This document shows positions 4,988 through 49,771 of a stretch of DNA of 50,696 bases, in pieces. The stretch lies in contig JAMPCN010000001.1 in assembly GCA_023666125.1 (NCBI GenBank), positions 141,030 through 191,725 of the forward strand, read 5' to 3'. Numbering within the stretch: position 1 is the stretch's first letter; each line of letters begins with the position of its first letter. The notes beneath the pieces were generated by a model. It worked only from the letters and a program-made list of their open reading frames with translations. It had not been told where the DNA came from and did not search any database. This DNA comes from Bacillus sp. (in: firmicutes) (GTDB taxonomy: Bacteria > Bacillota > Clostridia > Lachnospirales > Lachnospiraceae). The position numbers and the translations under genes are program-made.

Positions 4988-6157
4988 ATGAAAGAGTTAA
5001 GCAAAAGAACAGCAGGATTTACGGATTCCGTTATCCGGAGAATGACAAGAATCTCGAACCAATATAACGCCATTAATTTATCGCAGGGCTTTCCGGATTT
5101 TGACCCGCCAAAGGAGATTACGGACAGGCTCTCGCAGGCTGCGAAGACAGGACCGCACCAATACGCCCTGACATGGGGCGCGCAGAATTTCAGGGAGGCG
5201 CTGGCAAAAAAACAGGAGCATTTTTACGGCATGAAAGTTGACCCCGACCGGGAAATTGTTGTTACCTGCGGAAGCACGGAAGCGATGATGGCAGCCATGA
5301 TGTCGGTCTGCAATCCTGGCGATAAAGTCGTTATCTTTTCGCCTTTTTATGAAAATTACGGCGCGGATACGATATTGTCGGGGGCGGAGCCGATTTATGT
5401 ACCGCTAAAGCCGCCCGCATTCGATTTTGACGGAAACGAACTGGAGGACGCGATAAAGCAGCCGGGCGTAAAAGCGCTTATTTTGTGTAACCCCTCGAAT
5501 CCGTGCGGGAAGGTATTTACAAAAGAAGAATTGAAAACCATTGCAGAACTTGCCATCAAATATGACATTTATGTCATAACGGATGAAGTGTATGAGCATA
5601 TTGTCTATAAACCGCATACGCATACCTGTATCGCCACATTACCGGGTATGAGGGAGCGGACGCTTATCTGCAATTCTTTATCCAAGACATATTCGATTAC
5701 CGGCTGGCGTCTGGGATTTGTGATAGCGTCTGCGGAAATTACCGACAGAGTGAAAAAAGTGCATGATTTTTTGACGGTGGGAGCGGCAGCGCCTTTGATG
5801 GAGGCGGCGGTTGTGGGATTAGCGTTTCCCGATTCCTATTACGAGGAATTGCGGGAGCATTACACGCATATGAAAAATCTGTTTACGGACGGGTTAAAAG
5901 ATATCGGGCTTTCCTTTACCAGTCCGCAGGGCGCATATTATGTACTGGTGGATATCAGTGAATTCGGCTGCGCAGACGATATCGTTTTTTGCGAGAAACT
6001 TGCTGAAAAAGTAGGCGTGGGGGCGGTTCCGGGTTCCAGCTTTTTTAAGGAGCCGGAAAACAGGTATATCCGTTTCCATTTTGCCAAACAGGACGCCACT
6101 CTGCAGGCGGCGTTAGAGCGGCTTGCGGATATTCGCAGCAAGATGTCATCTTTTTAA
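4988..6157 (+). CDS. PLP-dependent aminotransferase, class I/II (AspC/PatA-like)
   Basis: This 389-residue fold-type I aminotransferase is cytoplasmic and likely moves amino groups between an amino acid and a 2-oxo acid. The start region INLSQGFPDFDPP, the LILCNPSNPCGKVF strand, ITDEVYEHIVY, and the PLP lysine in NSLSKTYSITGWRLGF (K233) are all present in the family order. The C-terminal GSSFFKEPENRYIRFHFA carries the substrate-carboxylate Arg. Length is normal. The substrate cannot be read from sequence; aspartate, aromatic and methionine aminotransferases share this pattern. Its ribosome site GGAG (4978-4981) lies in the right copy of the direct repeat that ends the structured leader insert. 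Confidence 0.9.
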   Translation: MKELSKRTAGFTDSVIRRMTRISNQYNAINLSQGFPDFDPPKEITDRLSQAAKTGPHQYALTWGAQNFREALAKKQEHFYGMKVDPDREIVVTCGSTEAMMAAMMSVCNPGDKVVIFSPFYENYGADTILSGAEPIYVPLKPPAFDFDGNELEDAIKQPGVKALILCNPSNPCGKVFTKEELKTIAELAIKYDIYVITDEVYEHIVYKPHTHTCIATLPGMRERTLICNSLSKTYSITGWRLGFVIASAEITDRVKKVHDFLTVGAAAPLMEAAVVGLAFPDSYYEELREHYTHMKNLFTDGLKDIGLSFTSPQGAYYVLVDISEFGCADDIVFCEKLAEKVGVGAVPGSSFFKEPENRYIRFHFAKQDATLQAALERLADIRSKMSSF

Positions 6158-6188
6158 ATGAAAGATAAATGAATCGTACAAAAATATA

Positions 6189-6217
6189 TTTAATTTCATA
6201 TCCGAATCTGCTATAAT
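6189..6217 (+). promoter_or_regulatory. Promoter for the GGDEF gene
   Basis: TATAAT (6212-6217) lies 17 nt after the weak -35 TTTAAT (6189-6194), 46 nt ahead of the GGDEF gene start. Confidence 0.5.
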
Positions 6218-6263
6218 ATATGGTAATCGGGCGACATAGGGTTATACAGAGAAAGGCTGCAAA

Positions 6264-8003
6264 ATGGAAAGCACAAATATACATGAGGTTATTGTTAATA
6301 AAGATAATATGCAGACGATATCGGCGGATGCGGCGTTTTATTCTTTTATGGGAGAACGGCTCTATCTTCCTTTTGAAAAGCTTGTCATGGAGGAGGATAA
6401 AAAAGTATTCTCTCGGGAATTTAAAGAATGTAATGGTGAGCGGTTTATGATGCGTCTTGTCGGGGAAAACGGAAAGCAGGGCGTTTATTTTTCCAGAGTA
6501 AAAGAAGGACCGTCCGAAAACAGTATCAAGATTTTGCTGCTCTATGCGGAATCCCTTGTAGAGATACGAAGCCAGTTACAAAAAACGGTTTCCATACGCA
6601 ATGCGATTCTGGGAATGTATAACGATACCTATTTTGAATATGAACCGGAAAACGGCATGATTCGGATGTATACCATGGAAATTGGCGAGCAGAACGTGGA
6701 GCGGTTTCCTCTGGAGGAATTTGAGCGCAGGCTTACGGTTCATGCCGATGAAAATCAGAAAAAAGACGTCCACGAGCTTATTGTGAATATCAAGACAGGG
6801 ATGCGCAGATTTGAAATGCGCGCGGGCAAAAATCTGATAAGCGAGGAGGGCGAAGACTGCCTGATGACGATAGGTATAAAGTCGGTTTATGAAAAAGGCG
6901 TTTTCTCCATTGCTGTGGGCTGTATTCATATCGGACGGGATTTCGGGCAGGATATTAGAAAAAAGATAGAATTGGATTCGTTGACCGGATTGGTCACAAA
7001 AGCGGATATTACGCGTATTGCGATTGATATTATCAATGTTAAGAAAGTCAAGGGCATTACCCTGGCGATTGTGGATATTGATTATTTTAAAAATGTAAAT
7101 GATACATACGGGCATATGTGCGGCGATGAGGTGCTTTCAAAAGTGGCCGCCATTATGGAAAAAGAGGTTGGAGATAACGGATTGGTCGGCCGTATCGGCG
7201 GCGACGAATTTCTCATTATATTCTATCATGCGGATGACATGGAGAATATGCGTGAACGGTTAAAATGTATTAAGAACAATGTGAAAGCTTCTTTTCCGCC
7301 GGGCATAGAAGGACAGCCTGCGATTACGCTTTCGATGGGCTGCGCGGCATATCCGAAAGATGGCGATACTTATGAAGACCTGTTTTTCCTTGCCGATTTT
7401 GCCCTATACCGTGCCAAGGAAAAGGGCCGTGACAGATATATTATTTTTAATAAGGAAAAGCATGGAGACCCGGAGGAAATACGCAATACGAAAAAAGAGT
7501 ATAATCAAATCGACAGCCGCGGAAATATGTCGATGGGGGATGTTCTCTGCGTCATGATGGACAGTGTGTACAGAAAAAAAGAATATCCGCTGGAAAGACT
7601 GTTGGATGATTTTGTTATTAATTTTGGCATTCAGCGGGTCATGATACATGCGGGAGAGCCTTATCGCATTACCTGCGTAGCCGGAGAGCAGCGTCCGGAA
7701 GCGGAGTTGATTGCAAAAACGCAGCATTACATCAATGCAGATGGCTATTTGCAACAGTTTGATGAGGACGGCGTTTTCTGTATGAACAATGTAAAATTTC
7801 TGGAGGATAAGCTTAACGATGTATATGAGCTGCTGGGAAAGCTTAGTATCTGTTCGCTGATACAGATAAAACTGACGGATAAAAACGGCGTTCCGGCCAT
7901 TTTAAGCCTCGAGTCCGTAAAGGGCTTAACGACATGGAATCGGTCGAATCTTCATTACTATCGTCTGTTTGCCAGGCTGCTTTCCGAATATGAACTGGCG
8001 TAG
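6264..8003 (+). CDS. Diguanylate cyclase-type GGDEF protein with N- and C-terminal sensor-like domains
   Basis: A 579-residue soluble protein. The central GGDEF domain (about 235-395) is complete: LDSLTGL start, [14 protein letters not shown] metal/substrate segment, and RIGGDEF with the signature at residues 312-316. It should make c-di-GMP from two GTP. The inhibitory I-site RxxD expected just before the signature is absent (GDNG), so product inhibition is probably lacking. Residues 1-230 look like one or two PAS-type folds, and 400-579 like a GAF-type fold; neither assignment is firm. No membrane helix or signal peptide is seen, so it would sense a cytoplasmic cue. It lies between an aminotransferase and a chemoreceptor and has its own promoter. 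Confidence 0.88.
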
Positions 8004-8101
8004 ACGGAGCGGCGTATCAGGAAAATCAGGTTTCATCTTATAAGAGAAAGAAGCATCTTTATCAATCATATATGACGGTAAAAAGGAGGATAAGAAAGGT
8101 T

Positions 8102-9652
8102 ATGAATGAGAAGAAAGTCAATTTATCAGCATTGGACGAATACATTAATAAGGTATATGTATTGGTGTTGTTATTAGTGCCGGGAGCGTGCCAGTGTGCG
8201 GGCATTGTGTATACCTTTGAAAAAATTATGGGATGGATGCCGGAAGTAAGCTGGGCGGCATTGATTATATTTGATATTACATGCCTTATTTATCTGGCAG
8301 CAGGCATATTTTTTATTAAGACGGGATTTATGGACGGCATTGTGAGAACTTCCAAGCTGAAGGCGGGAAAAATTTTTCTTGTAGTCATCATGTTCACGCA
8401 GTTTAATTTTATTATTTATATGATTCCGGCCAAGGATTTTTGGGGATTCGCGTTCTTTTTTGTCGTACTGACGACTTTCTTTTTGGATTATAAAATGGTC
8501 GCTGTTACATCTGTGGAAATAGCCGTTTCCTTAGGCGTGGCATGGATTGTAAAGGCGGACGTATTACTGCCGCAGGCGGGTTCCATGTTTATCACCAATA
8601 TGATAAACAGAGTTGTCAGCGTTATTTTAGCGTTACCGACAACCGTGCTTTTAACCTATCTTGTCAACCGTTTTCTTGTGAATGCCAAAAAAGATGAAAT
8701 GGAACGCAATAATGAAAAAGTGCAAAACGTTCTTGATTCCGTGCAGGCATTGTCAGAGAATCTTTTCAGTGCGGGAACGGCTCTTTCGCAGATATCGGAG
8801 AATGAAAGCACTTCGGTGGAAGAACTCTCCGCCACAAGCGAACAGCTTTTAGCAAACAGTAATATGCTTGGCGGCAAGACAGAGGAAAGCATGGCGAATC
8901 TAAATGAATTGGACGAGTGGAAAAATGTTATGGCGGACAACGTGGAAAAGGTAGAAATAACGTCCAAAGATTTATTGGATAAATCCAAAGAAAATGAAAA
9001 GATGCTTGCCAATTTAAAAGCAATCAACGCGGAGTTATCAGAATCTATGCTTGCGACAACGGATGTATCGCAGAAATTATCGGGAGCGGTGGATAAGATT
9101 GGCACAACGCTCAGTTTGATTAATGAAATATCGGAATCGACCAATTTACTGGCGTTAAACGCGTCCATAGAGGCGGCGAGAGCAGGAGAAGCGGGCAAAG
9201 GATTTGCGGTAGTTGCGCAGGAAGTGGGAAATCTGGCGGGCAGTACGCAAAGGTCGCTTGAGGAAGTGGAAACGGTAATAGAGAGCGTACAAAACAATGT
9301 TGATGAGATAGCAATGCACATCAACGAAAACTCCAGAAAATTGGAAAAACAGAATGAATATTTTGTCAACGTATTTGCAGGAATAAGAGATATGACGCAG
9401 TTATTGGATGTATCGGTAAATGCGGTTAATGCCATGGGCGAGGCGCATCATAAACAGACCATGGTAATACAAAATACCGTTTCCATCAATAAGGAGATTG
9501 CGGAGAGCGTCCAAAACGAAAATGAGCAGTTCCAGTCCATTAATAGCATGGTGGAAAGCAATGTAAGCGATATCTCGGAAATGACAACACAGATTAGCGC
9601 CATTAATGAAATGGTTGACGAGATTAACAGGATATTGAAAAACGAGGAATAA
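8102..9652 (+). CDS. Methyl-accepting chemotaxis protein with multi-TM sensor domain
   Basis: A 516-residue receptor when started at the ATG at 8102, which follows GGAGG and AGAAAGG; the frame also has an ATG at 8072 but without a ribosome site. About six membrane helices fill residues 15-200, then a long coiled coil with the hairpin tip [34 protein letters not shown]. The topology matches the receptor at 3113-4624. It ends 3 nt before a TSUP transporter gene, suggesting cotranscription. The ligand is unknown. Confidence 0.92.
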
Positions 9653-9655
9653 CGT

Positions 9656-10423
9656 ATGTATCGATTCATCATCTGCTTTATCGCGGGAATAGGCGCGGGG
9701 CTTGGCACGGGATTTGCGGGCATGAGCGCCGCCGCCGTTATCAGCCCGATGCTTATTACTTTTTTAGGGCTTCCGGCATATGAAGCCGTCGGTATCGCGC
9801 TTGCCAGCGATGTATTAGCAAGCGCCATCAGCGCTTATACTTATGGGAAAAATAAGAATCTGGATATCCGCAACGGTCTGGTTATGATGGCGGCGGTTTT
9901 AGCGTTTACCTTTGTCGGCAGTTTTGTGGCAAGTCTGGTTCCGAATACGACCATGGGGAGTTTTTCGGTGTTTATGACGCTGCTTTTAGGCATTAAGTTC
10001 ATCGTCAAACCGGTTATGACGACAAAAGAGGCGATGGAGAAAGTAGACGGCAGAAAAAGGATTATCCAGTCGCTGATAAGCGGCGTGATAGTCGGTTTTA
10101 TCTGCGGTTTTGTCGGCGCGGGCGGCGGTATGATGATGTTACTGATTTTAACGGGCGTTTTGGGATATGAACTGAAAACGGCGGTTGGCACAAGCGTTTT
10201 TATTATGGCATTTACGGCTTTTACAGGCGCGGTAAGCCACTTTATTATCGGCGGTATGCCGGATTTGTGGTGCCTGTTATTCTGCGTGGCTTCCACGCTG
10301 TTATGGGCAAGAATCGCCGCTAAATTTGCCAATAAGGCAAGCGCGCTTGTTTTAAACCGTGCTACGGGCGTCGTGCTTGCCGTTTTGGGCGCGGCAATTC
10401 TTGCTGTGAATTATATCCAATAG
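9656..10423 (+). CDS. TSUP (TauE/SafE) family membrane transporter
   Basis: A 255-residue, almost wholly hydrophobic protein with about eight membrane helices in two repeats. The first half has GIGAGLGTGFAGMSAAAVISPML and the second has GFICGFVGAGGGMMMLLIL, the paired glycine-rich motifs of the TauE/SafE (sulfite/organosulfonate exporter) family. The repeat structure and length are normal for the family. Substrates are often sulfur oxyanions or small organic acids, but the sequence does not say which. The start ATG at 9656 uses a GAGGAA site inside the end of the preceding chemoreceptor gene, so the two are likely cotranscribed, and the receptor could sense the transported compound (inference). 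Confidence 0.88.
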   Translation: MYRFIICFIAGIGAGLGTGFAGMSAAAVISPMLITFLGLPAYEAVGIALASDVLASAISAYTYGKNKNLDIRNGLVMMAAVLAFTFVGSFVASLVPNTTMGSFSVFMTLLLGIKFIVKPVMTTKEAMEKVDGRKRIIQSLISGVIVGFICGFVGAGGGMMMLLILTGVLGYELKTAVGTSVFIMAFTAFTGAVSHFIIGGMPDLWCLLFCVASTLLWARIAAKFANKASALVLNRATGVVLAVLGAAILAVNYIQ

Positions 10424-10433
10424 ACGTTTTCTG

Positions 10434-11786
10434 TTATCCCGCAAGCTGTAATATTTTTTCCATATCGGCAATCAGGCTGCGCGAAAAGTTTTCCGCTTCA
10501 TAATATATCTGTTCCGCTTCTGCGAAGGAACCGCTGTGGATAGCGTCGATAACGGCGGCTCCATAGGTGTGGAATTTTTTATGTTTGGGTCCAAGCCCCT
10601 CCCAGAGCGGTAAAACGCCGGGAATATCGGGCGTCATGGCGTAGTAGAAATGCCCGAATCCGCATTTGGAAGAATCTAATTGTAATGGATTGACGGTTTT
10701 TTCATCTACCATTTTCCTTAAATTGCCTAACCATGTATGGTGGGAGGAAATAGCATTCTGCATATACTGGGAAAATTCTTCCGCTTTCAAATGATAGAAA
10801 GCGTCTTTTGTCATATCGCCCATCTGCTTTACGGTTTCGTCCAGCGTCTTTTCGATATCAACGACCGGTTCGGAAGCTTTCTGCAGTTCCTGACCGACCT
10901 GGCGCATAAATTCCGTACTGTCTCTTAACTGGTTTTCCATTTCCGTCATGGAGCTGCTGATTTCCTCGCTGACGGCAGCAATGGAACTGACGGACTCATT
11001 TACTTTGGAAACATAGCGTTTGCTTTCGTCGTTTAGCTCCCATACATTATTGATGCCGTCCGCCATCGCGCTTAATGACCGGATGGTGCTGGAGGAGCTG
11101 GTTACGCTCTTTTCGGAAGCGTCCTTCATGCTTGCCACGAAAACGCTCATATCTTTGGTCAGTTTCTGCGTTTCTTCTGCAAGCGTCCTGATTTCGCTTG
11201 CCACAACGGCAAAGCCTTTCCCGGATTCGCCGGCTCTTGCGGCTTCCACGGAAGCATTCAGCGCTAAAATATTTGTCTGTAAGGAAATGGAGTCGATTCC
11301 TGAAATGACATTGTTAAGCTGATTAATGATATTTACCAGCTCATCCATGTCATTTTGCAGTTCCTTGGAAACGGCAATAGTCTGTTCCGACAAATCTTTA
11401 ATATTTGTCAGTTCGTTCTGTCCGGCTTCTATTTTACGGTAGACTTCATCTGTCGCGCCGGAGACTTCAATGATATTATTGGTAAGTTCTTCGTGCTGAT
11501 TATTTGCTTTTTCGCCTCCGGAGGACGCTCCGAAGATGGTTTCTGTTGCTTTGGTGACTTTCCGGGAAATGTCCATTATTTTTTCGGTTTGATGCTGCAT
11601 GGTTAGGTCGAGAGAACTGATTTGCATGACGGCTTTGATGTTTTTTTCAAAAACTTCTGCAAACTGTCGTCGTCCGTGAAAGAGCCTTGTATAGATTTTG
11701 TTGAGTTCAGGCGCTTTGGAGTAATCGGTATCTTTGAGTTCTGAGACGGCCCGCATAAGGGCTGCTTTTCCTTTTTTGATTGCCAT
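10434..11786 (-). CDS. Soluble chemoreceptor with C-terminal CZB zinc-binding domain
   Basis: A 450-residue chemoreceptor with no membrane helix. The signalling hairpin tip ([37 protein letters not shown]) is in the middle, and residues about 336-450 form a CZB domain. Its zinc ligands are all visible and fit the pattern HxxW, CxFGxFY, HxxxH: H349, C375, H402 and H406. CZB chemoreceptors and cyclases respond to zinc and, in TlpD, to oxidants such as hypochlorous acid, so a cytoplasmic zinc or oxidant sensor is likely. The start has GAGGAT upstream. It is convergent with the TSUP gene, 10 nt away, with no clear terminator between. Confidence 0.93.
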
Positions 11787-11869
11787 TTACATATCCTCTT
11801 TGCTTTCTTAAATTTTACCTGCTACTTTCATCATACGGGATTTTAAAGTTTTTGCAAGCTTTTTTCTAC

Positions 11870-11897
11870 TTTTCATAGTGGAAATTTGTGTTACAAT
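11870..11897 (+). promoter_or_regulatory. Extended -10 promoter for rhaD-bsh
   Basis: TGT followed by TACAAT (11892-11897) forms an extended -10, with a weak TTTTCA (11870-11875) 16 nt upstream. It lies about 75 nt before the aldolase start. Confidence 0.45.
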
Positions 11898-11972
11898 AGG
11901 ATTATGCAAATAATATATTGAAATGATGCGGCGGTATGAGCGCGCATTATCGGAAAGAGAGGGGTATATCAT

Positions 11973-12821
11973 ATGAGAATATTGGACACAAAATTTGTGC
12001 GCGGATTTATTAAGATGGCGGACGACGGGTTTCAGCAGGGCTGGCATGAGAGAAACGGCGGTAATTTATCCTACCGCTTAAAACCGGAAGAGGTAGAGGG
12101 AATCAAGTCGAGACTCAGCGATAACGGCGAATGGATACCTATCGGCGTAAGCGTTCCGGGACTTGCGGGCGAATATTTCCTGGTGACGGGAAGCGGCAAG
12201 TATTTTCGTAATATTATTGTAGACCCGGAAGCGTGTATTGCAATTATAGAATTGGATGATAAGGGAGAAAATTACCGTATCCGCTGGGGACTGGTAGAGG
12301 GAGGCGTACCGACGAGCGAGCTGCCGTCCCATCTGATGAACCATGAGGTGAAAAAACGCGTAACGGACGGCAGACACCGCGTTATTTATCATGCGCATAC
12401 GACGAATATCATTGCGCTGACTTTTATCCTGCCGTTGGACGATATCATTTTTACAAGGGAATTATGGGAAGCGGCGACGGAGTGTCCTGTTGTCTTTCCG
12501 CAGGGCGTGGGCGTTGTAAGCTGGATGGTTCCGGGCGGAAGAGAAATTGCGGTTGCCACGAGTAAGTTGATGGAGCAGTATGACGTAGCGGTCTGGGCGC
12601 ATCACGGCATGTTCTGTTCGGGGGAGGATTTTGATTTGACGTTCGGTCTGCTGCATACGGTGGAAAAATCAGCGGAAATCCTGATTAAGATATATTCCGT
12701 ATCGCCGAGAAAATTACAGACCATTACGCCGGAAAATTTCAGGGATGTCGGAAAGGCTTTCCATGTGGAACTGCCGGAGCGGTTTTTATTTGAAAAGAAA
12801 GACAAAATCATCTATGAATAA
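11973..12821 (+). CDS. rhaD: Rhamnulose-1-phosphate aldolase
   Basis: This 282-residue class II aldolase family protein is close in length to E. coli RhaD. It would split L-rhamnulose 1-phosphate into dihydroxyacetone phosphate and L-lactaldehyde in the cytoplasm. Visible marks are WHERNGGNLSYR near the start (phosphate-binding NGGN), FLVTGSGKYF, the zinc histidines in YHAHTTN (H140, H142) and in WAHHGMFCSG (H211), and an acidic ELPSHLMNHE segment. These align with the known E. coli ligands H141, H143 and H212 with a one-residue offset. The ribosome site is GAGAGGGG. No rhamnose isomerase, kinase or transporter is nearby, so the rest of the pathway must lie elsewhere. The next gene, 14 nt downstream, is a bile salt hydrolase. 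Confidence 0.9.
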   Translation: MRILDTKFVRGFIKMADDGFQQGWHERNGGNLSYRLKPEEVEGIKSRLSDNGEWIPIGVSVPGLAGEYFLVTGSGKYFRNIIVDPEACIAIIELDDKGENYRIRWGLVEGGVPTSELPSHLMNHEVKKRVTDGRHRVIYHAHTTNIIALTFILPLDDIIFTRELWEAATECPVVFPQGVGVVSWMVPGGREIAVATSKLMEQYDVAVWAHHGMFCSGEDFDLTFGLLHTVEKSAEILIKIYSVSPRKLQTITPENFRDVGKAFHVELPERFLFEKKDKIIYE

Positions 12822-12835
12822 AAGGAGATGCGCTT

Positions 12836-13813
12836 ATGTGTACGGCTGCAACTTATAAGACAAAAGATTTTTATTTCGGGCGTACGTTGGACTATGAATT
12901 TTCCTATGGGGAAGAAGTGGTGATTACGCCCAGAAACTATGGTTTTCAATTTCGGCATATGGAACCCATGGGAAATCACTACGCCATGATTGGCATGGCG
13001 CATATGGAGGGAGATTATCCGCTCTATTATGATGCCGTAAATGAGAAAGGCCTTGGCATAGCGGGCTTAAATTTTGTCGGCAATGCGGATTATAAGGACG
13101 TCATGCAGGGAAAAGATAATGTGGCGCAGTTTGAATTGATATTATGGGCGCTTGGCAAATGCGCCACCGTAAAAGAGGCAAGGACGCTTTTTGCGAATAT
13201 GAATCTGACTAATACGCAGTTTCATGAAAAACTTCCTTTGGGGCAGCTTCACTGGATAATAGCGGATAAAGAAGAAGCGATAGTGTTGGAATCCGTAAAG
13301 GACGGTATCAAAATCTATGACAATCCGGCGGGCGTTTTGACAAATAACCCGACTTTCCCGGAGCAGATGTTTGCACTCAATAATTACATGCACCTATCCG
13401 CGAAAGCGCCGCAGAATCTCTTCTCGGAGAAATTACCGTTACAGGCATACAGCCGCGGCATGGGCGCGTTAGGGCTGCCCGGGGATTTATCTTCCCAGTC
13501 GCGCTTTGTCAGGGTCGCGTTTACGAAAATGAATGCGGTATCCGGTGATTCCGAAACAGAAAGCGTCAGCCAGTTTTTCCATATTCTTGGCAGCGTAGAC
13601 CAGCAGCGGGGATGCTGTGATATGGGTGGCGGGAAATATGAGATTACGATTTATACGTCCTGCTGTAATGCGGATAAAGGAATTTATTATTATACGACTT
13701 ATGATAACCACCAGATTACGGCGGTCGATATGCACTTAGAGAATCTGGACGCAGAAAAGGTCATCAGATATCCGCTGATTTTGGAAGAACAGATTAGGAG
13801 GCAGAACGGATAA
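12836..13813 (+). CDS. bsh: Choloylglycine hydrolase (bile salt hydrolase type)
   Basis: A 325-residue N-terminal nucleophile hydrolase of the choloylglycine hydrolase/penicillin V acylase family, predicted to free glycine or taurine from conjugated bile salts. There is no signal peptide; Met1 removal would expose Cys2 as nucleophile. From my memory of the Clostridium perfringens enzyme, the conserved residues are C2, R16, D19 (FGRTLDYE), N79 (AGLNF), N170 (VLTNNPTF) and R223 (QSRFVRVAF), with GLPGDLSS nearby. That loop and ending (YTSC, KGIYYYTTYDN) favour bile salt hydrolase over penicillin V acylase. AAGGAG precedes the start. It is 14 nt after rhaD and probably in the same operon. The enzyme marks a host-gut lifestyle. 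Confidence 0.88.
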   Translation: MCTAATYKTKDFYFGRTLDYEFSYGEEVVITPRNYGFQFRHMEPMGNHYAMIGMAHMEGDYPLYYDAVNEKGLGIAGLNFVGNADYKDVMQGKDNVAQFELILWALGKCATVKEARTLFANMNLTNTQFHEKLPLGQLHWIIADKEEAIVLESVKDGIKIYDNPAGVLTNNPTFPEQMFALNNYMHLSAKAPQNLFSEKLPLQAYSRGMGALGLPGDLSSQSRFVRVAFTKMNAVSGDSETESVSQFFHILGSVDQQRGCCDMGGGKYEITIYTSCCNADKGIYYYTTYDNHQITAVDMHLENLDAEKVIRYPLILEEQIRRQNG

Positions 13814-13927
13814 CAAAGAAAAGAATTTGGCATAGTCATGACGGCCGTTTTGTGCTAAAATATAAGAGTTGTGTAAAAGATGTCTCTCAAACGACAGACA
13901 AAAGAAAAATCAGGGGAAGAAAATACC

Positions 13928-14998
13928 ATGCAGAGCAGAATACTGGTCGCGGATGACGCGGAGGTAAACCGCGAGATACTGCGCGAGATGCTGAAAGATG
14001 AATATTTGGTGGATACTGCAAAAGACGGCGTAGAGGCGCTTGATAAACTACAGGAATTCCTGGAAGAGACGTCCGCGCTCATTCTGGATTTGCAGATGCC
14101 GAGAATGGATGGGTTTGCGGTTATTGAGACGCTTAGGAAAAACGGATGGTTAAGTAAAATCCCGGTGCTTGTCATCAGCAGTGAGAATGCGGTGGATATT
14201 GAGAATCAGTGCTTTTCTTTGGGGGTTTTGGATTTTATCCATAAGCCCTTTGAAACGTCTGTTGTAAAAAACAGGATAAGGAATACGGTAGACCTTTTTG
14301 CCTATAAGAACAGGCTGGAACTCAAAGTCAAAAAACAGTCGCAGATTATAGAAATGCAGGCGGAGAAACTAAGGGGCGCAGAGTCTTTTAACCATCTGAT
14401 GATGGAGTATCGCTGTGCCATTATGGAGATTGAGACCAAATTAAAGGTGTTGAACGAAGAATTTTCCCGGGCATATAACCGCAATCCGTTTGAGTCGATT
14501 AAGAGCAGGTTAAAGTCTCCTGAGAGCATTTATGAAAAGTTACAGCGCAAAGGGTATTCCATTACCGTTGACAATATAGAAAAGCATTTGGCGGATGTGG
14601 CGGGCGTACGCGTTATCTGTTCTTTTCCGGACGATATCTATAGGCTGGCGAGTTTTCTTGTCAGACAGGACGATATCATTCTGGTGAAAGAAAAGGATTA
14701 TATCAAAAATCCCAAGCCCAACGGATACCGGAGCCTTCACTTAATCGTCAGTATTCCGATTTTTTTGTCTGATGAAAAAAAGTACAGGAAAGTGGAAGTG
14801 CAGTTTCGGACGATTGCCATGGATTTCTGGGCAAGTCTGGAACATAAGTTGAAATATAAAAAAGATGTGGAAGACGCGGAGGCGATTGTCAAACAGTTAA
14901 AAGCCTGTGCGGATTCCATTGGACTTTTAGATTATCAGATGCAGGAGATTAGACATAAAATTGATACACATAATGAAAAAGACGGCAAAGATATCTGA
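13928..14998 (+). CDS. Response regulator receiver domain fused to a RelA/SpoT-type (p)ppGpp synthetase domain
   Basis: A 356-residue two-domain protein. Residues 1-120 are a CheY-like receiver: acidic pocket VADD (D9, D10), phospho-acceptor D54 in LILDLQMPRMDGF, and the lysine in DFIHKPF. A helical linker (about 120-180) leads to a small-alarmone-synthetase-type domain. RLKSPESIYEKL, DVAGVRVIC (metal Asp), DYIKNPKPNGYRSLH (acceptor-nucleotide loop) and VEVQFRTIAMDFWASLEHKLKYK are all intact. No hydrolase (HD), TGS or ACT domain is present. Phosphorylation may therefore gate pppGpp/ppGpp synthesis; that is inference. Start chosen at 13928 because AGGGGA precedes it; the in-frame ATG at 13880 has none. 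No partner histidine kinase is adjacent. glgX follows by 31 nt. Confidence 0.9.
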   Translation: MQSRILVADDAEVNREILREMLKDEYLVDTAKDGVEALDKLQEFLEETSALILDLQMPRMDGFAVIETLRKNGWLSKIPVLVISSENAVDIENQCFSLGVLDFIHKPFETSVVKNRIRNTVDLFAYKNRLELKVKKQSQIIEMQAEKLRGAESFNHLMMEYRCAIMEIETKLKVLNEEFSRAYNRNPFESIKSRLKSPESIYEKLQRKGYSITVDNIEKHLADVAGVRVICSFPDDIYRLASFLVRQDDIILVKEKDYIKNPKPNGYRSLHLIVSIPIFLSDEKKYRKVEVQFRTIAMDFWASLEHKLKYKKDVEDAEAIVKQLKACADSIGLLDYQMQEIRHKIDTHNEKDGKDI

Positions 14999-15029: not shown

Positions 15030-17144
15030 ATGGATTTTACAAAGCAGAAACCCAAAAGAGGCGTTGGTTTACAGCCGCTTGATATCATTGACGGGTTTAA
15101 GGTCCGGCCGGGATTTTATAACAGAGACGGTGCGGCGGCAGCGTCAAACGGCGTCAGTTTCACGATTCATTCATTCGGCGCAACAAGCTGTACGCTTTTA
15201 CTGTTTCATCCGCATGAAAAGGAGCCTTATGCAAGACTTAAATTTCCGGAGTCCTATCATATCGGCAATACTTATTCCATGCTGGTTTTTGATTTAAAAA
15301 TTGAGGAATTTGAGTACGCTTTTCAGTTGGACGGGCCTTATGACAAGGAAAAAGGATTGCTTTTTGACAAAAACAATATCTTGTTAGACCCTTATGCGAG
15401 GGCGGTGACAGGACAGAGAAACTGGGGAGACAGACCGGAAAGCGACAACGGTTTTGTTTATCATGCAAGGGTTGTCGAGAATAACTTTGACTGGGGCAAT
15501 ATCAGGCAGTTGGAACATCCTGTAGAGGATTTGGTGATTTATGAGATGCACGTGAGAGGATTTACCAAGGACGCTTCTTCCGGCGTGACGGCGAAAGGTA
15601 CATATGAAGGACTGCGCCAGAAGATTCCTTATCTGAAAGATTTGGGAATCAACGCGGTGGAACTGATGCCTATTTTTGAATTTGACGAAATGGAAAGCGC
15701 CAGAGTAGTGGACGGGCAGCAGCTTTATAATTATTGGGGATATAATACGGTCTGCTTTTTTGCGCCGAATACAAGTTATACTTCCGTTGTGGAACATAAT
15801 CATGAGGGCGACGAGTTAAAACAGCTTATTTATGAACTAAAGGAAAACGGCATCGAAGTGATTCTGGATGTCGTCTTTAACCATACGGCGGAGGGAAACG
15901 AGGACGGACCCTGCTTCTCTTTTAAGGGAATCGATAACAATATTTATTATATTTTAACGCCGGGCGGATATTATTATAATTTCAGCGGGTGCGGCAATGT
16001 CTTAAACTGCAATCATCCGACAACCCGCCGTTTTATCATTGACTGCCTGCGTTTCTGGGCGACGGAATACCGTGTGGACGGCTTCCGTTTTGACCTTGCG
16101 TCTATCTTATCCAGAGACCAGCACGGCGCGCCTATGGCGGAGCCTCCTATTTTACATGCGATTGCCTGCGATTCCATTTTGGGGAAAGTAAAGCTGATTG
16201 CGGAAGCATGGGATGCAGGAGGGCTGTATCAGGTAGGGAATTTCCCGTCTTTTAACAGGTGGTCCGAATGGAACGGAAAGTACCGCGACGATATGCGGCG
16301 TTTCTTAAAGGGAGACGAGGGCATGGCCGCAACGGCGATTACAAGGATTACCGGTTCTAAGGATATGTATGACGCACAGGTAAGAGGACACGGCGCTTCC
16401 GTAAATTTCTTAACCTGTCATGACGGCTTTACGCTTTATGATTTATATGCCTATAATATGAAGCATAACGAGAAAAACGGCTGGAACAATACTGACGGAG
16501 ATAATAACGGTAACAGTTGGAACTGTGGCGAGGAAGGGCAGACGGATAACCCTGAGGTGGAAACGCTTCGCCGCCGCATGGTAAAAAATGCGTTCGCCAC
16601 TTTGATGTGCAGCAGGGGAACGGCGATGTTTTATGCCGGGGATGAGTTTTGCAATACGCAGTTTGGCAATAATAACGCATACTGCCAGGATAATATTATT
16701 TCCTGGCTGGATTGGAACAGGCTGGATGAATATCGGGAAATCCATGACTTTTTCCGCTATATGATAGCGTTCCGTAAAAAACATGCTATTTTAAGAAAGT
16801 CTACGCCGCAGGTTTCGAGCAAACTGCCGGAAATCAGCATCCATAACGGTCATCCGTGGAATGTTGGAATGGATTATAACGGCAGGCTTATCGGCATTAT
16901 GTATGCGGGCAGGGATGAAAAGAACGAAGAAGACGACATTATTTTCTATGCCATGAACGCATATTGGGAGACTGTTATCATGCAGCTTCCGGAACTGCCA
17001 AACGGTATGAAATGGAAAGTGTGCGTCAATACGTTTATACCGTATGAAGACGGACAGGACGTAGAGGCGATGACGGAGTTTCAATATAAAAGCACCCTGA
17101 AAATACCGCCGCGTACGGTGATTGTTTTGGAGGCGCAGATATGA
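15030..17144 (+). CDS. glgX: Glycogen debranching enzyme (GH13 isoamylase/GlgX type)
   Basis: This 704-residue enzyme hydrolyses alpha-1,6 branch points in glycogen or limit dextrins. An N-terminal CBM48-like beta domain (about 25-150) precedes the GH13 barrel. Catalytic residues are visible: nucleophile D355 in DGFRFDLASIL, acid E392 in IAEAWDAGG and the transition-state Asp D465 in TCHDGFTLYD, with WNCGEEGQTDN following as in GlgX and TreX. The start at 15030 has AAAGGAAG; the longer frame from 14961 overlaps the preceding gene and lacks a site. It shares ATGA with trpC (4-nt overlap), an unusual pairing of glycogen use with tryptophan synthesis. No other glycogen gene is in view. Confidence 0.92.
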   Translation: MDFTKQKPKRGVGLQPLDIIDGFKVRPGFYNRDGAAAASNGVSFTIHSFGATSCTLLLFHPHEKEPYARLKFPESYHIGNTYSMLVFDLKIEEFEYAFQLDGPYDKEKGLLFDKNNILLDPYARAVTGQRNWGDRPESDNGFVYHARVVENNFDWGNIRQLEHPVEDLVIYEMHVRGFTKDASSGVTAKGTYEGLRQKIPYLKDLGINAVELMPIFEFDEMESARVVDGQQLYNYWGYNTVCFFAPNTSYTSVVEHNHEGDELKQLIYELKENGIEVILDVVFNHTAEGNEDGPCFSFKGIDNNIYYILTPGGYYYNFSGCGNVLNCNHPTTRRFIIDCLRFWATEYRVDGFRFDLASILSRDQHGAPMAEPPILHAIACDSILGKVKLIAEAWDAGGLYQVGNFPSFNRWSEWNGKYRDDMRRFLKGDEGMAATAITRITGSKDMYDAQVRGHGASVNFLTCHDGFTLYDLYAYNMKHNEKNGWNNTDGDNNGNSWNCGEEGQTDNPEVETLRRRMVKNAFATLMCSRGTAMFYAGDEFCNTQFGNNNAYCQDNIISWLDWNRLDEYREIHDFFRYMIAFRKKHAILRKSTPQVSSKLPEISIHNGHPWNVGMDYNGRLIGIMYAGRDEKNEEDDIIFYAMNAYWETVIMQLPELPNGMKWKVCVNTFIPYEDGQDVEAMTEFQYKSTLKIPPRTVIVLEAQI

Positions 17145-33654: not shown

Positions 33655-35886
33655 ATGAAAACGAGGGAAAAATGGGTATTCAGAATTAGTACGGTCATTG
33701 TGTTATTGGGGATATGCGTTTTAGCTTTTGTATGGTACTCCGGTATTTTGAAAAGTGAATTGAGGGAGCTGGTTAGAAATACGTTAAAAGAGGTTTCTAA
33801 CCAGAATGTGCTTGTCGTGCAGAAAGAAATCGGGGGGGATATCAATGCACTGACGGAGATTGCGGAACGCATTGGTTCCATAGAGGAAGATGACGACGAG
33901 GTTATGCGTACCTTAAAAGCGGCTATGGAACGTTATTCCTTTAAGAGAATGGGGTTTGCCCGGACGGACGGTATGGCGCATACGACGGACGGTCTGTCTT
34001 ATGACGTTTCCGACAGCGCATATTACCAGACGTCTATCCGGGGGGAGACCTATATATCGGATTTGTTCCTCGATCCGACCGATAACGAAGAGATTATTGT
34101 GTTCAGTATGCCGGTAAAAAACGAAGAGGAAGTTATCGGTATCGTGATAGCGACCTACCGCGTGGAGAGTCTAAAGGAGGTTCTGGCGGTTACTTCTTTT
34201 GAGGGCGAGGGATATACCTATATCGTACGGCGCGACGGCAGTAAAATAGTGGATTCCGTCAATGAGACAAGCTTTCAGAATATGACGAATATCTTTACCT
34301 CCATGGAGGAGGCGGATAAACGTAACGACAAGGTTGTCCACGAATTAAAGAGGCTGATGGAAAGCAATAAGACCGGTTACGTTATCTTTTATAATAAAAT
34401 CGGAAAGTATATGTATGCGACGCCGCTTGGCATCAACGACTGGTTTTTGATTGACGTTGTTCCCGTCGATTTTATGGAAAGCACATCGAACGTCATTATT
34501 CACAGAACGTATCTGATTTGTGCGGTGCTTGCCGTTATCTGTGTGCTTGCCGCGTGTCTGATTTTCCGGGAGGAGCGCAGCAAAAAGCAGCAGATGCAGA
34601 ATCTTCTCTATGTGGATGAACTGACCGGCGGCAGTACGCTTGCCAAGTTCAAACTGGATGTTTCCGCAAAAATTGCGGAGGGGCATGACAACGCCGCGCT
34701 GGTAGTGATGGATTTGGATGATTTTAAGCTTATCAACGAACTGTTCGGTTATGACGAGGGCGATAAGGTTTTGGGTTATATATGGAAAACGATTCAAGAC
34801 AACTGCCGCAAGGAGGAACTGGCGGGACGCGGTGCGGCGGATCATTTTATGATGTGGCTGTTTTATGATAAAAAGAAAGACATCGAGGACAGGATTATAG
34901 AATTAAATGCGGATATACAGCATTGTTTTATGCCGAAAAATATGGACTATATTCTGCATCCCATTTTTGGTATTTATTATGTGGACAGATATGACGAGGA
35001 CGTGGATGGCATCATCGACTGCGCGACGTTAGCGCATAATCATGTAAAGCAGGAAAAAAGCGGTATCTACAAGGTCTATTCGGAGATTATGAAAGAGCGG
35101 ATTGTGGAGAAAAAGCAGCTTTCCGATCAGATTGAACACGCGTATGAGAACCATGAGTTTGTGGCGTTTTATCAGCCCAAATACGATTCCAAGACACAGC
35201 GGCTGGCGGGCGCGGAAGCGTTGATTCGCTGGCGTAAGCCTAACGGGCAGATGATTTCTCCGGGACTTTTTATTCCTCATGCGGAGGAAAGCGGTTTTGT
35301 CCGTAAGCTGGATGAATATATTTTTAAAGAGGTATGTATGGCGCAGAGACGGTGGCTGGATAAGGGACTCCCTATTGTGCCGATTTCCGTTAATATTTCC
35401 AGAAGACTCATCGAGACGCCGGAATTTATCGACGAATATAAGAAGATACTGGACGATTCGGGCGTGCCGATTGAATATATCCAGCTTGAAATTACGGAGA
35501 GTGCGATTTTGGACAAACAGGATGAACTCATCAATATTATGGAGAAGCTGCACCAGATTGGCTTTGTGATTTTGATGGATGATTTTGGTACGGGTTATTC
35601 CTCGCTGATGATGTTAAAATCCGTTCCGGTAGACGTGATGAAACTGGATAAGAGTTTTGTGGACGATTATGATGATGTGAAAGGCGAGCGGATTATACGC
35701 CGCGTTATGCAGATGGCGCAGGATTTGCACATCGAAGTGACGGCGGAGGGTGTGGAAACCAAAGACCAGTACGAATTTTTAAAGGGCATTGACTGCAATA
35801 TGATTCAGGGGTATTACTTCGCAAGACCGATGCCTGAAGAAGAATTTGAGGAGTGTATGCACAAGGAAAAAGCAGTGGTAAGTTAG
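33655..35886 (+). CDS. c-di-GMP phosphodiesterase: membrane sensor, degenerate GGDEF, intact EAL
   Basis: A 743-residue membrane protein. A helix at about 8-28 and another near 285-305 bracket an outer dCache-like sensor (YQTSIRGETYISDLFLDPTDNEEIIVFSMPVKN). The GGDEF domain (about 315-460) has AADHF at 394-398 in place of GGDEF, so it should not make c-di-GMP, though it could bind GTP. The EAL domain (about 490-740) keeps E521-A-L, NISRR, the ITES Glu, DDFGTGYSS, KLDKSF, EGVET and QGYYFARP, and should hydrolyse c-di-GMP. Start at 33655 is set by GAGGTG; the frame from 33610 lacks a site. A clear terminator follows. Confidence 0.92.
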   Translation: MKTREKWVFRISTVIVLLGICVLAFVWYSGILKSELRELVRNTLKEVSNQNVLVVQKEIGGDINALTEIAERIGSIEEDDDEVMRTLKAAMERYSFKRMGFARTDGMAHTTDGLSYDVSDSAYYQTSIRGETYISDLFLDPTDNEEIIVFSMPVKNEEEVIGIVIATYRVESLKEVLAVTSFEGEGYTYIVRRDGSKIVDSVNETSFQNMTNIFTSMEEADKRNDKVVHELKRLMESNKTGYVIFYNKIGKYMYATPLGINDWFLIDVVPVDFMESTSNVIIHRTYLICAVLAVICVLAACLIFREERSKKQQMQNLLYVDELTGGSTLAKFKLDVSAKIAEGHDNAALVVMDLDDFKLINELFGYDEGDKVLGYIWKTIQDNCRKEELAGRGAADHFMMWLFYDKKKDIEDRIIELNADIQHCFMPKNMDYILHPIFGIYYVDRYDEDVDGIIDCATLAHNHVKQEKSGIYKVYSEIMKERIVEKKQLSDQIEHAYENHEFVAFYQPKYDSKTQRLAGAEALIRWRKPNGQMISPGLFIPHAEESGFVRKLDEYIFKEVCMAQRRWLDKGLPIVPISVNISRRLIETPEFIDEYKKILDDSGVPIEYIQLEITESAILDKQDELINIMEKLHQIGFVILMDDFGTGYSSLMMLKSVPVDVMKLDKSFVDDYDDVKGERIIRRVMQMAQDLHIEVTAEGVETKDQYEFLKGIDCNMIQGYYFARPMPEEEFEECMHKEKAVVS

Positions 35887-48697: not shown

Positions 48698-48730
48698 GAA
48701 ACTGAAAATGGAGATGAGGAGGAAATGTTT

Positions 48731-49771
48731 ATGCGAAAGGCTGTCTTTTGTGCGGCGGCTGTTTTCGTTGCCATATCATTTATCGGCTGCGGAAATAAAG
48801 TGGCAGAGAATATCATTTCGACAAGTGAAATTGTGAAACTGGAAAAAGACTTTTCTGCCGTCCGCTATGAGGGTGACTACGGATTTGATGAATTTCTTCT
48901 GCAAGGCGGCGCTTCTTCCGATAAAGAAGTGGTTGAATTTTTAATGGATAATCTGCTTTCCGGCATAGACCTGGCATTTATGGAAAGCCCGTATGGATGC
49001 AGTACGATTGCGGTACAGACTGCGGAGGGAAAATCATTATTCGGCCGTAACTTTGACTGGAATCATTGTGAAGCTATGGCGGTTTTATCCTATCCCGAAA
49101 ACGGATACGCATCCATTTCCACTGTGAATGTAAATTTTATCAGTCAGGGCGGCATAGTCGGCATGGCGCTTAAAGAAGATGAAATAAAAACGATTGCCGC
49201 CTTATATGCGCCTTTGGACGGCATGAATGAAAAGGGGCTTGCAGTGTCCGTCAATATGATTCAGGATTCGGCAACGATTGAGCAGGATACGGATAAGCCT
49301 GATATTACAACGACGACTGCAATCCGCTTATTGCTTGATAAGGCGGCTACGGTAGATGAGGCTTTAGAACTGCTTGGACAGTACGATATGCACGCATCCA
49401 AGGGTATGATGGTTCATTTTGCCATAGCGGACGCCGAGGGAGGAAGCGTGGCGGTTGAATATATAGACAATGAAATGGTGGTAATAGAAACGCCGGTTTT
49501 AACCAATTTTTATCTTGCCGGGGGAGAAAAGAACGGAATCGGAACGGCACAGTCCCATACCCGCTATGATATGCTGATGGAACGGTTGGAGCAAAGTGAA
49601 ACAATGAGCGAAGATGATGTACGGGATGCACTAAACAGCGTGAGCAAGGGAAACTTTGGCGAGTTTGAATCCACGGAATGGAGCATTGTATTTAACCAGA
49701 CGGACGGACAGGCGGCCTATTATCATCGTGAAAACTATGAACAGGAATACGTGTTTACGATTCATGAGTAA
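48731..49771 (+). CDS. Lipoprotein of the linear-amide C-N hydrolase (choloylglycine hydrolase/C45-like) family
   Basis: A 346-residue exported protein. The signal peptide ends in a lipobox (SFIGC, lipid Cys C20), so it is tethered on the outer face of the membrane. The hydrolase core begins at YGCSTIAVQ, where C90 would be the nucleophile after removal of a roughly 69-residue propeptide. FGRNFDW (R106, D109) and GLAVSVNM match the Arg/Asp and Asn of the bile salt hydrolase at 12836-13813. Substrates in this superfamily are acyl amides: bile salts, penicillin V, N-acyl amino acids or homoserine lactones, or peptides. GAGGAGG (48716-48722) favours the ATG at 48731 over 48725. An ABC transporter follows 53 nt later. 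Confidence 0.85.
   Translation: MRKAVFCAAAVFVAISFIGCGNKVAENIISTSEIVKLEKDFSAVRYEGDYGFDEFLLQGGASSDKEVVEFLMDNLLSGIDLAFMESPYGCSTIAVQTAEGKSLFGRNFDWNHCEAMAVLSYPENGYASISTVNVNFISQGGIVGMALKEDEIKTIAALYAPLDGMNEKGLAVSVNMIQDSATIEQDTDKPDITTTTAIRLLLDKAATVDEALELLGQYDMHASKGMMVHFAIADAEGGSVAVEYIDNEMVVIETPVLTNFYLAGGEKNGIGTAQSHTRYDMLMERLEQSETMSEDDVRDALNSVSKGNFGEFESTEWSIVFNQTDGQAAYYHRENYEQEYVFTIHE

Follow-up and report, generated by a model that had tools for sequence, protein, structure and literature searches.

The gene at positions 13928..14998 on the forward strand of the window (the whole 50,696-nucleotide stretch of Lachnospiraceae DNA that was analysed) encodes a protein in which a CheY-like receiver (REC) is followed by one long helix and then by a RelP-type small alarmone synthetase (SAS), and we consider it likely that this protein acts as an orphan response regulator that governs (p)ppGpp synthesis through its phosphorylation. 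As a rule, long RSH enzymes couple the stringent response to ribosomes or nutrient state, or else it depends on SAS that are controlled by transcription and by ligands. An alarmone-making response regulator, if the assignment is true, would enable whatever signal a histidine kinase senses to act quickly on growth; two-component and alarmone networks would be joined in one protein and an outside signal could set the alarm directly in a gut-type bacterium. The gene is a single open reading frame of 356 amino acids plus stop, in which Pfam recovers Response_reg at residues 5-117 (80.4 bits; cut-off 30.2) and RelA_SpoT at residues 193-313 (118 bits; cut-off 27), and the same scan gives no HD, TGS or ACT match in the protein. 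The start codon at 13928 is backed by orthologues, with an alternative in-frame ATG at 13880. Upstream lie a Shine-Dalgarno-like sequence identified by reading (13912..13919, +) and a promoter-like site with a TG before the second hexamer (13833..13861, +), the latter a consensus match only, of which the region holds five against 2.6 expected. The window contains no Rfam match at gathering score. The source genome comprises 3.23 Mb in 138 contigs and is 88% complete.

The receiver occupies residues 1-120 (13928..14287, +). As an earlier note on this DNA had described, it is intact: the acidic pair D9/D10, the predicted phospho-acceptor D54 (codon 14087..14089, +), S84 and the K106-P107-F108 motif are all present, giving the protein the REC fold, acidic pair, phospho-Asp, S/T and Lys that characterize a response regulator. 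Across an alignment of the 41 distinct full-length fused proteins from all loci gathered, D9, D10 and D54 are kept in 41/41, position 84 is S or T in every protein and K106 is present in all except one, which has R (40/41). Both domains appear from codon comparison to be under strong purifying selection (relative to a 99% identical relative, 10 synonymous and 2 non-synonymous changes in the REC codons; 24 and 1, respectively, in the synthetase codons).

The second domain (residues 184-348; 14477..14971, +) is predicted to be a RelP-type (p)ppGpp synthetase. By sequence and by fold it is closest to RelP and RelQ, and nearest to RelP structures: 6ewz and 6fgk (RelP) score 185 and 184 bits by sequence, versus about 121 for RelQ/YjbM. 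Excerpts of a study of S. aureus RelP (PMC5794853) name R78, K80, S84, K88, R91, D107, R112, E174 and H190 as contacts to an ATP analogue or its magnesium, and these residues map without gaps, at an offset of 116, to R194, K196, S200, K204, R207, D223, R228, E290 and H306 of the fusion. In RelP numbering, R78, K80, S84, K88, D107, Y151 of the G-loop, H155, E174, Q176 and H190 are conserved in 41/41 fused proteins and R112 in 40/41, the exception being an unread X; R91 is matched in 31/41, including the window protein, and varies in 10/41. The proline of the G-loop, P146 in S. aureus RelP, aligns with P262 (codon 14711..14713, +) and is likewise matched in 41/41. The protein thus has the attributes of a RelP-type SAS, namely a synthetase without hydrolase or C-terminal regulatory domains, the ATP/Mg residues, the G-loop Tyr and the G-loop proline; the claim of a synthetase-only domain with every catalytic motif agrees with the absence of HD, TGS and ACT and with the complete set of ATP-site residues. 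According to the same excerpts, P146 is linked to the constitutive activity of S. aureus RelP, its introduction raises RelQ to the efficiency of RelP and removes the sensitivity of RelQ to pppGpp, and RelP and RelQ are subject to transcription and ligand control (PMC5794853). Based on the matched ATP-site residues and the G-loop proline, we predict that the catalytic core is competent by itself. Elsewhere in the source genome, RelA_SpoT matches fall in a 771-aa frame of long-RSH size (C27) and in 210- and 231-aa frames of stand-alone SAS size. A weak match of 22.7 bits, below the cut-off, lies in a 193-aa frame (L005; C70:246-560).

Between the two domains the AlphaFold model places one continuous helix at residues 110-183 (14255..14476, +), running from REC alpha5 into synthetase alpha1 and predicted to form a coiled coil, which is in keeping with the helical linker noted earlier. 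The monomer model has a pTM of 0.54, leaving domain placement unsure, with pLDDT values of 69 and 58 within residues 131-150, and among the best 50 matches listed of a fold search no entry spans both domains. From K106 to P187 the linker measures 89 residues in 38/41 fused proteins and 82 in 3/41. The shorter form falls in two lineages and differs from the longer by exactly one heptad, as expected of a register-bound coiled coil. Linker periodicity is 3.4-3.5 residues, the best window being equalled by 5/500 shuffles.

The fused synthetases (39 rows) form one clade among 153 synthetase domains with 99/94 bootstrap/SH-aLRT support, in a tree whose bootstrap is not fully settled and whose quick version gives the clade an SH-aLRT of 92. 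In the tree they adjoin stand-alone SAS, most of them from the same family, and a tblastn search (E up to 1) at 12 such loci found REC remnants in 0/12 while detecting two positive controls; thus, the SAS at these loci bear no trace of a former receiver. Within the source genome, the best match to the receiver and linker is a REC-HD-GYP protein (45% identity over residues 3-149, E 7.6e-34; next match 1.7e-20), with which the fusion receiver has a VNREIL stretch in alpha1 in common. Five matches in the source genome other than the protein itself reach residue 139 or beyond, of which four are REC + HD by Pfam and the fifth, a 254-aa frame on C81, lay outside the Pfam scan; we take these HD domains to be HD-GYP on the basis of the HHE..DG.GYP motif. 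The receiver is also 54% identical over residues 1-116 to that of a REC-HD-GYP gene on a Roseburia contig. In a receiver tree of 112 rows, built on few columns, the fused receivers group with this Roseburia receiver (SH-aLRT 92), whose place within the group is not resolved; the source-genome REC-HD-GYP receiver joins next (99) and further REC-HD-GYP receivers after it (90), and two others from the source genome (L038, L039) are placed elsewhere. Since receiver and linker resemble those of REC-HD-GYP regulators, the best interpretation of the fusion is an output swap on a regulator of this type. It would have arisen once, probably in the Lachnospiraceae, when a REC-HD-GYP-type regulator contributed its receiver and helix to a stand-alone SAS. 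Another combination, of REC, HD and GGDEF in one protein, occurs in the source genome at L036 (4-1929, -).

Within the window there is no histidine kinase (0 of the 57 HATPase_c matches of the genome fall there) and no second receiver, and the sole HATPase_c match on the same contig is about 74 kb from the fusion gene. The statement that no kinase gene is adjacent therefore holds for the window, where HATPase_c is lacking, but not for two close relatives, L189 and L190, where two hybrid kinases lie directly upstream. At both loci the order on the same strand is REC-HD-GYP, hybrid kinase, hybrid kinase-REC-DegV and then the fusion, with about 85 bases (L189) or 83 bases (L190) from the DegV-kinase stop to the fusion ATG. 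The hybrid kinase at L189, the locus scanned, carries an HPt domain; the hybrid histidine kinase-REC with its C-terminal DegV domain is identified there by Pfam (9572-12274, -), and the L190 copy is a full-length orthologue (75%). The source genome has a comparable gene set without the fusion on C43, which includes a hybrid kinase-REC-DegV gene by Pfam (L131 4846-7536, -); on C52 the closest REC-HD-GYP paralogue has a hybrid kinase upstream, and the genome has seven HPt matches. Across 35 loci with a usable neighbourhood (L056/L218 and L057/L202 each repeat one genome, and some loci are cut by contig ends), considering ORFs of at least 100 aa, the fusion has a kinase no more than one gene away in 2/35 and no more than two genes away in 5/35; the other 30/35 have none within two genes. 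We regard hybrid kinase/HPt relays as the best candidates for the input to the fusion.

Orthologues of the L189 DegV-kinase (at least 65% identity) occur in 46/77 genomes of the genus, and co-distribution with the fusion was rejected, as the hybrid kinase-REC-DegV is found in 14/24 genomes with the fusion versus 32/53 without (a fragment in G037 left out). A conserved operon was also rejected, the commonest neighbour clusters being present in only 8/36 loci (ORFs under 100 aa left out). In the window the fusion is followed directly by an alpha-amylase/CBM48 protein (15030..17144, +), presumably GlgX-like and adjacent to the fusion in 4/35 related loci as well, and is preceded directly by the first of two choloylglycine-hydrolase-family genes (12836-13813 and 48725-49771). 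In part of one genus the fusion is flanked by genes that by reading are comEC-like and holA-like, or is separated from them by one gene. The window also encodes two predicted c-di-GMP enzymes, a GGDEF protein (6264-8003) and a Cache-GGDEF-EAL protein (33664-35886).

We propose that a histidine kinase encoded elsewhere, probably a hybrid kinase acting via an HPt domain, would pass phosphate to D54. Phosphorylation would change the pairing of the receivers, and this change would be transmitted to the synthetase assembly along the continuous helix formed by receiver alpha5, the coiled coil and synthetase alpha1, so that the rate of (p)ppGpp formation from ATP and GDP/GTP would shift. That phosphorylation sets activity gains support from the conserved phospho-site, the purifying selection on both domains and the heptad-quantised linker, as well as from the kinship of the receiver to REC-HD-GYP regulators and the kinases adjacent in two relatives. 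Because the G-loop proline goes with constitutive competence in RelP, we lean slightly towards an unphosphorylated receiver that restrains the enzyme and a phosphorylated one that releases it, rather than the opposite. The gating of a RelP-type synthetase by a coiled linker thereby becomes a structural question that can be tested.

This proposal presupposes that the fusion is real. Full-length matches are present in 24/77 genomes of the genus and, in a family sample, in 13/397 genomes belonging to 13 genera (source genome included in both), and in class and phylum samples, where the query could miss fusions with an unrelated receiver or a more distant SAS, the single hits (1/391, E up to 1e-65, and 1/398, E up to 1e-70) are the source genome itself. 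Class loci with longer frames (L209-L211) have SAS rows not marked as fused, and no single place in the matching plasmid records (31) or phage records (31) covers 80% of the query. The earlier note had suggested counting and placing homologues that combine REC and RelA_SpoT, which gives 41 distinct fused proteins, with the fused rows of the synthetase tree in one clade, and had named a sequencing join absent in relatives as a result that would overturn the finding. The fragmentation of the source assembly into 138 contigs is the one point in favour of an assembly join; the 41 distinct fused proteins come from many assemblies, including that of Lachnospiraceae bacterium IMSAGC_003, a record not labelled as a MAG, and so exclude such a join, while a decaying gene is at odds with the strong purifying selection. 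We accordingly rule out both, with a negligible chance of error.

Three further explanations accept the fusion and differ on what it does. It is rather unlikely that the synthetase is constitutive, with the receiver doing no more than aiding pairing, stability or localisation and control residing in transcription: a pure scaffold needs neither D54 nor the acidic pair, yet all 41 proteins, which represent 13 genera or more, keep both, and the linker length is quantised by heptad, although the G-loop proline in 41/41, tied to constitutive activity in the excerpts on S. aureus RelP (PMC5794853), the lack of a conserved kinase neighbour and the promoter-like site upstream of the gene all suit such an enzyme. 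Activity is not readable from sequence, and SAS relatives with other activities are described in the excerpted text of PMC11782079, so the domain might make another product, or modify tRNA as toxic SAS do, the kind that in toxin-antitoxin pairs has an antitoxin gene alongside, in place of (p)ppGpp; its closeness to RelP and RelQ by sequence and fold, together with the finding that among ORFs of at least 100 aa no neighbour cluster exceeds 8/36 loci, makes this improbable. We see still less likelihood in a receiver that drains phosphate from REC-HD-GYP phosphorelays or engages in cross-talk with them, with control of the synthetase secondary, for in 41/41 proteins the receiver and linker have stayed joined to the synthetase, even if the closeness to REC-HD-GYP receivers and the VNREIL stretch common with the source-genome paralogue speak for it.

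We therefore retain the response regulator with an alarmone synthetase output as the preferred reading. We give even chances to a more specific version of it, in which a Lachnospiraceae lineage re-plugged a REC-HD-GYP-like phosphorelay receiver onto a RelP-type synthetase of constitutive competence, such that input from an environmental phosphorelay, directed in relatives to an HD-GYP enzyme, would set the alarmone via a coiled-coil gate, independent of ribosomes and starvation.

We know of no characterised enzyme of REC-SAS architecture, although the combination of REC and RelA_SpoT is probably listed in domain databases. Among the titles and abstracts listed from the open literature searched, none concerns such a protein, in agreement with the earlier note, and a term search of the text of Atkinson 2011 (PMC3153485) finds neither 'receiver' nor 'fusion'. 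Response regulators with enzymatic output and SAS with a built-in input domain are each known; within the literature searched, their union is new. A different addition is seen at L144 (1158-2597, +), where a 480-aa SAS has a C-terminal GDSL-lipase-like domain.

Compared with RelP/SAS2 (YwaC; PDB 6ewz, 6fgk), whose matched chains are without a receiver, the fusion has REC and a long helix before the synthetase; the long RSH enzymes (Rel/RelA/SpoT) have a synthetase of the same superfamily, but the fusion is without their HD, TGS and ACT domains. The REC-HD-GYP regulators of Lachnospiraceae are alike in receiver and linker helix and differ in output, which is HD there and a RelA/SpoT synthetase here. 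As a model of mechanism we look to the PleD-type REC-GGDEF response regulators, whose messenger-making domain is of another kind. A parallel is offered by gene sets of other Clostridia. Setting aside 9 fused loci and L126 from a total of 80 leaves 70 non-fused SAS loci, and in 13 of these the gene directly downstream encodes a receiver protein of ~200-242 aa; separately, L093 has a 550-aa receiver protein downstream of the SAS and L086 a receiver protein upstream. Ten of the 13 receiver-linked SAS fall in one clade of 11 rows, the other three being without a row there and the eleventh member (L087) being without such a regulator seen. The regulators scanned are OmpR-type in 3/3 cases (L089, L098, L124), and the gene that follows has HisKA in 8/8 scanned and HATPase_c in 7/8; the order SAS, response regulator, histidine kinase is seen at L089, L090, L092, L097, L098, L104, L122 and L124, around 5200-8650. 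These SAS are likewise linked to a two-component system, but through separate genes and in a different SAS clade, and links between SAS genes and two-component systems have thus arisen on at least two occasions, by neighbourhood in those Clostridia and by fusion here.
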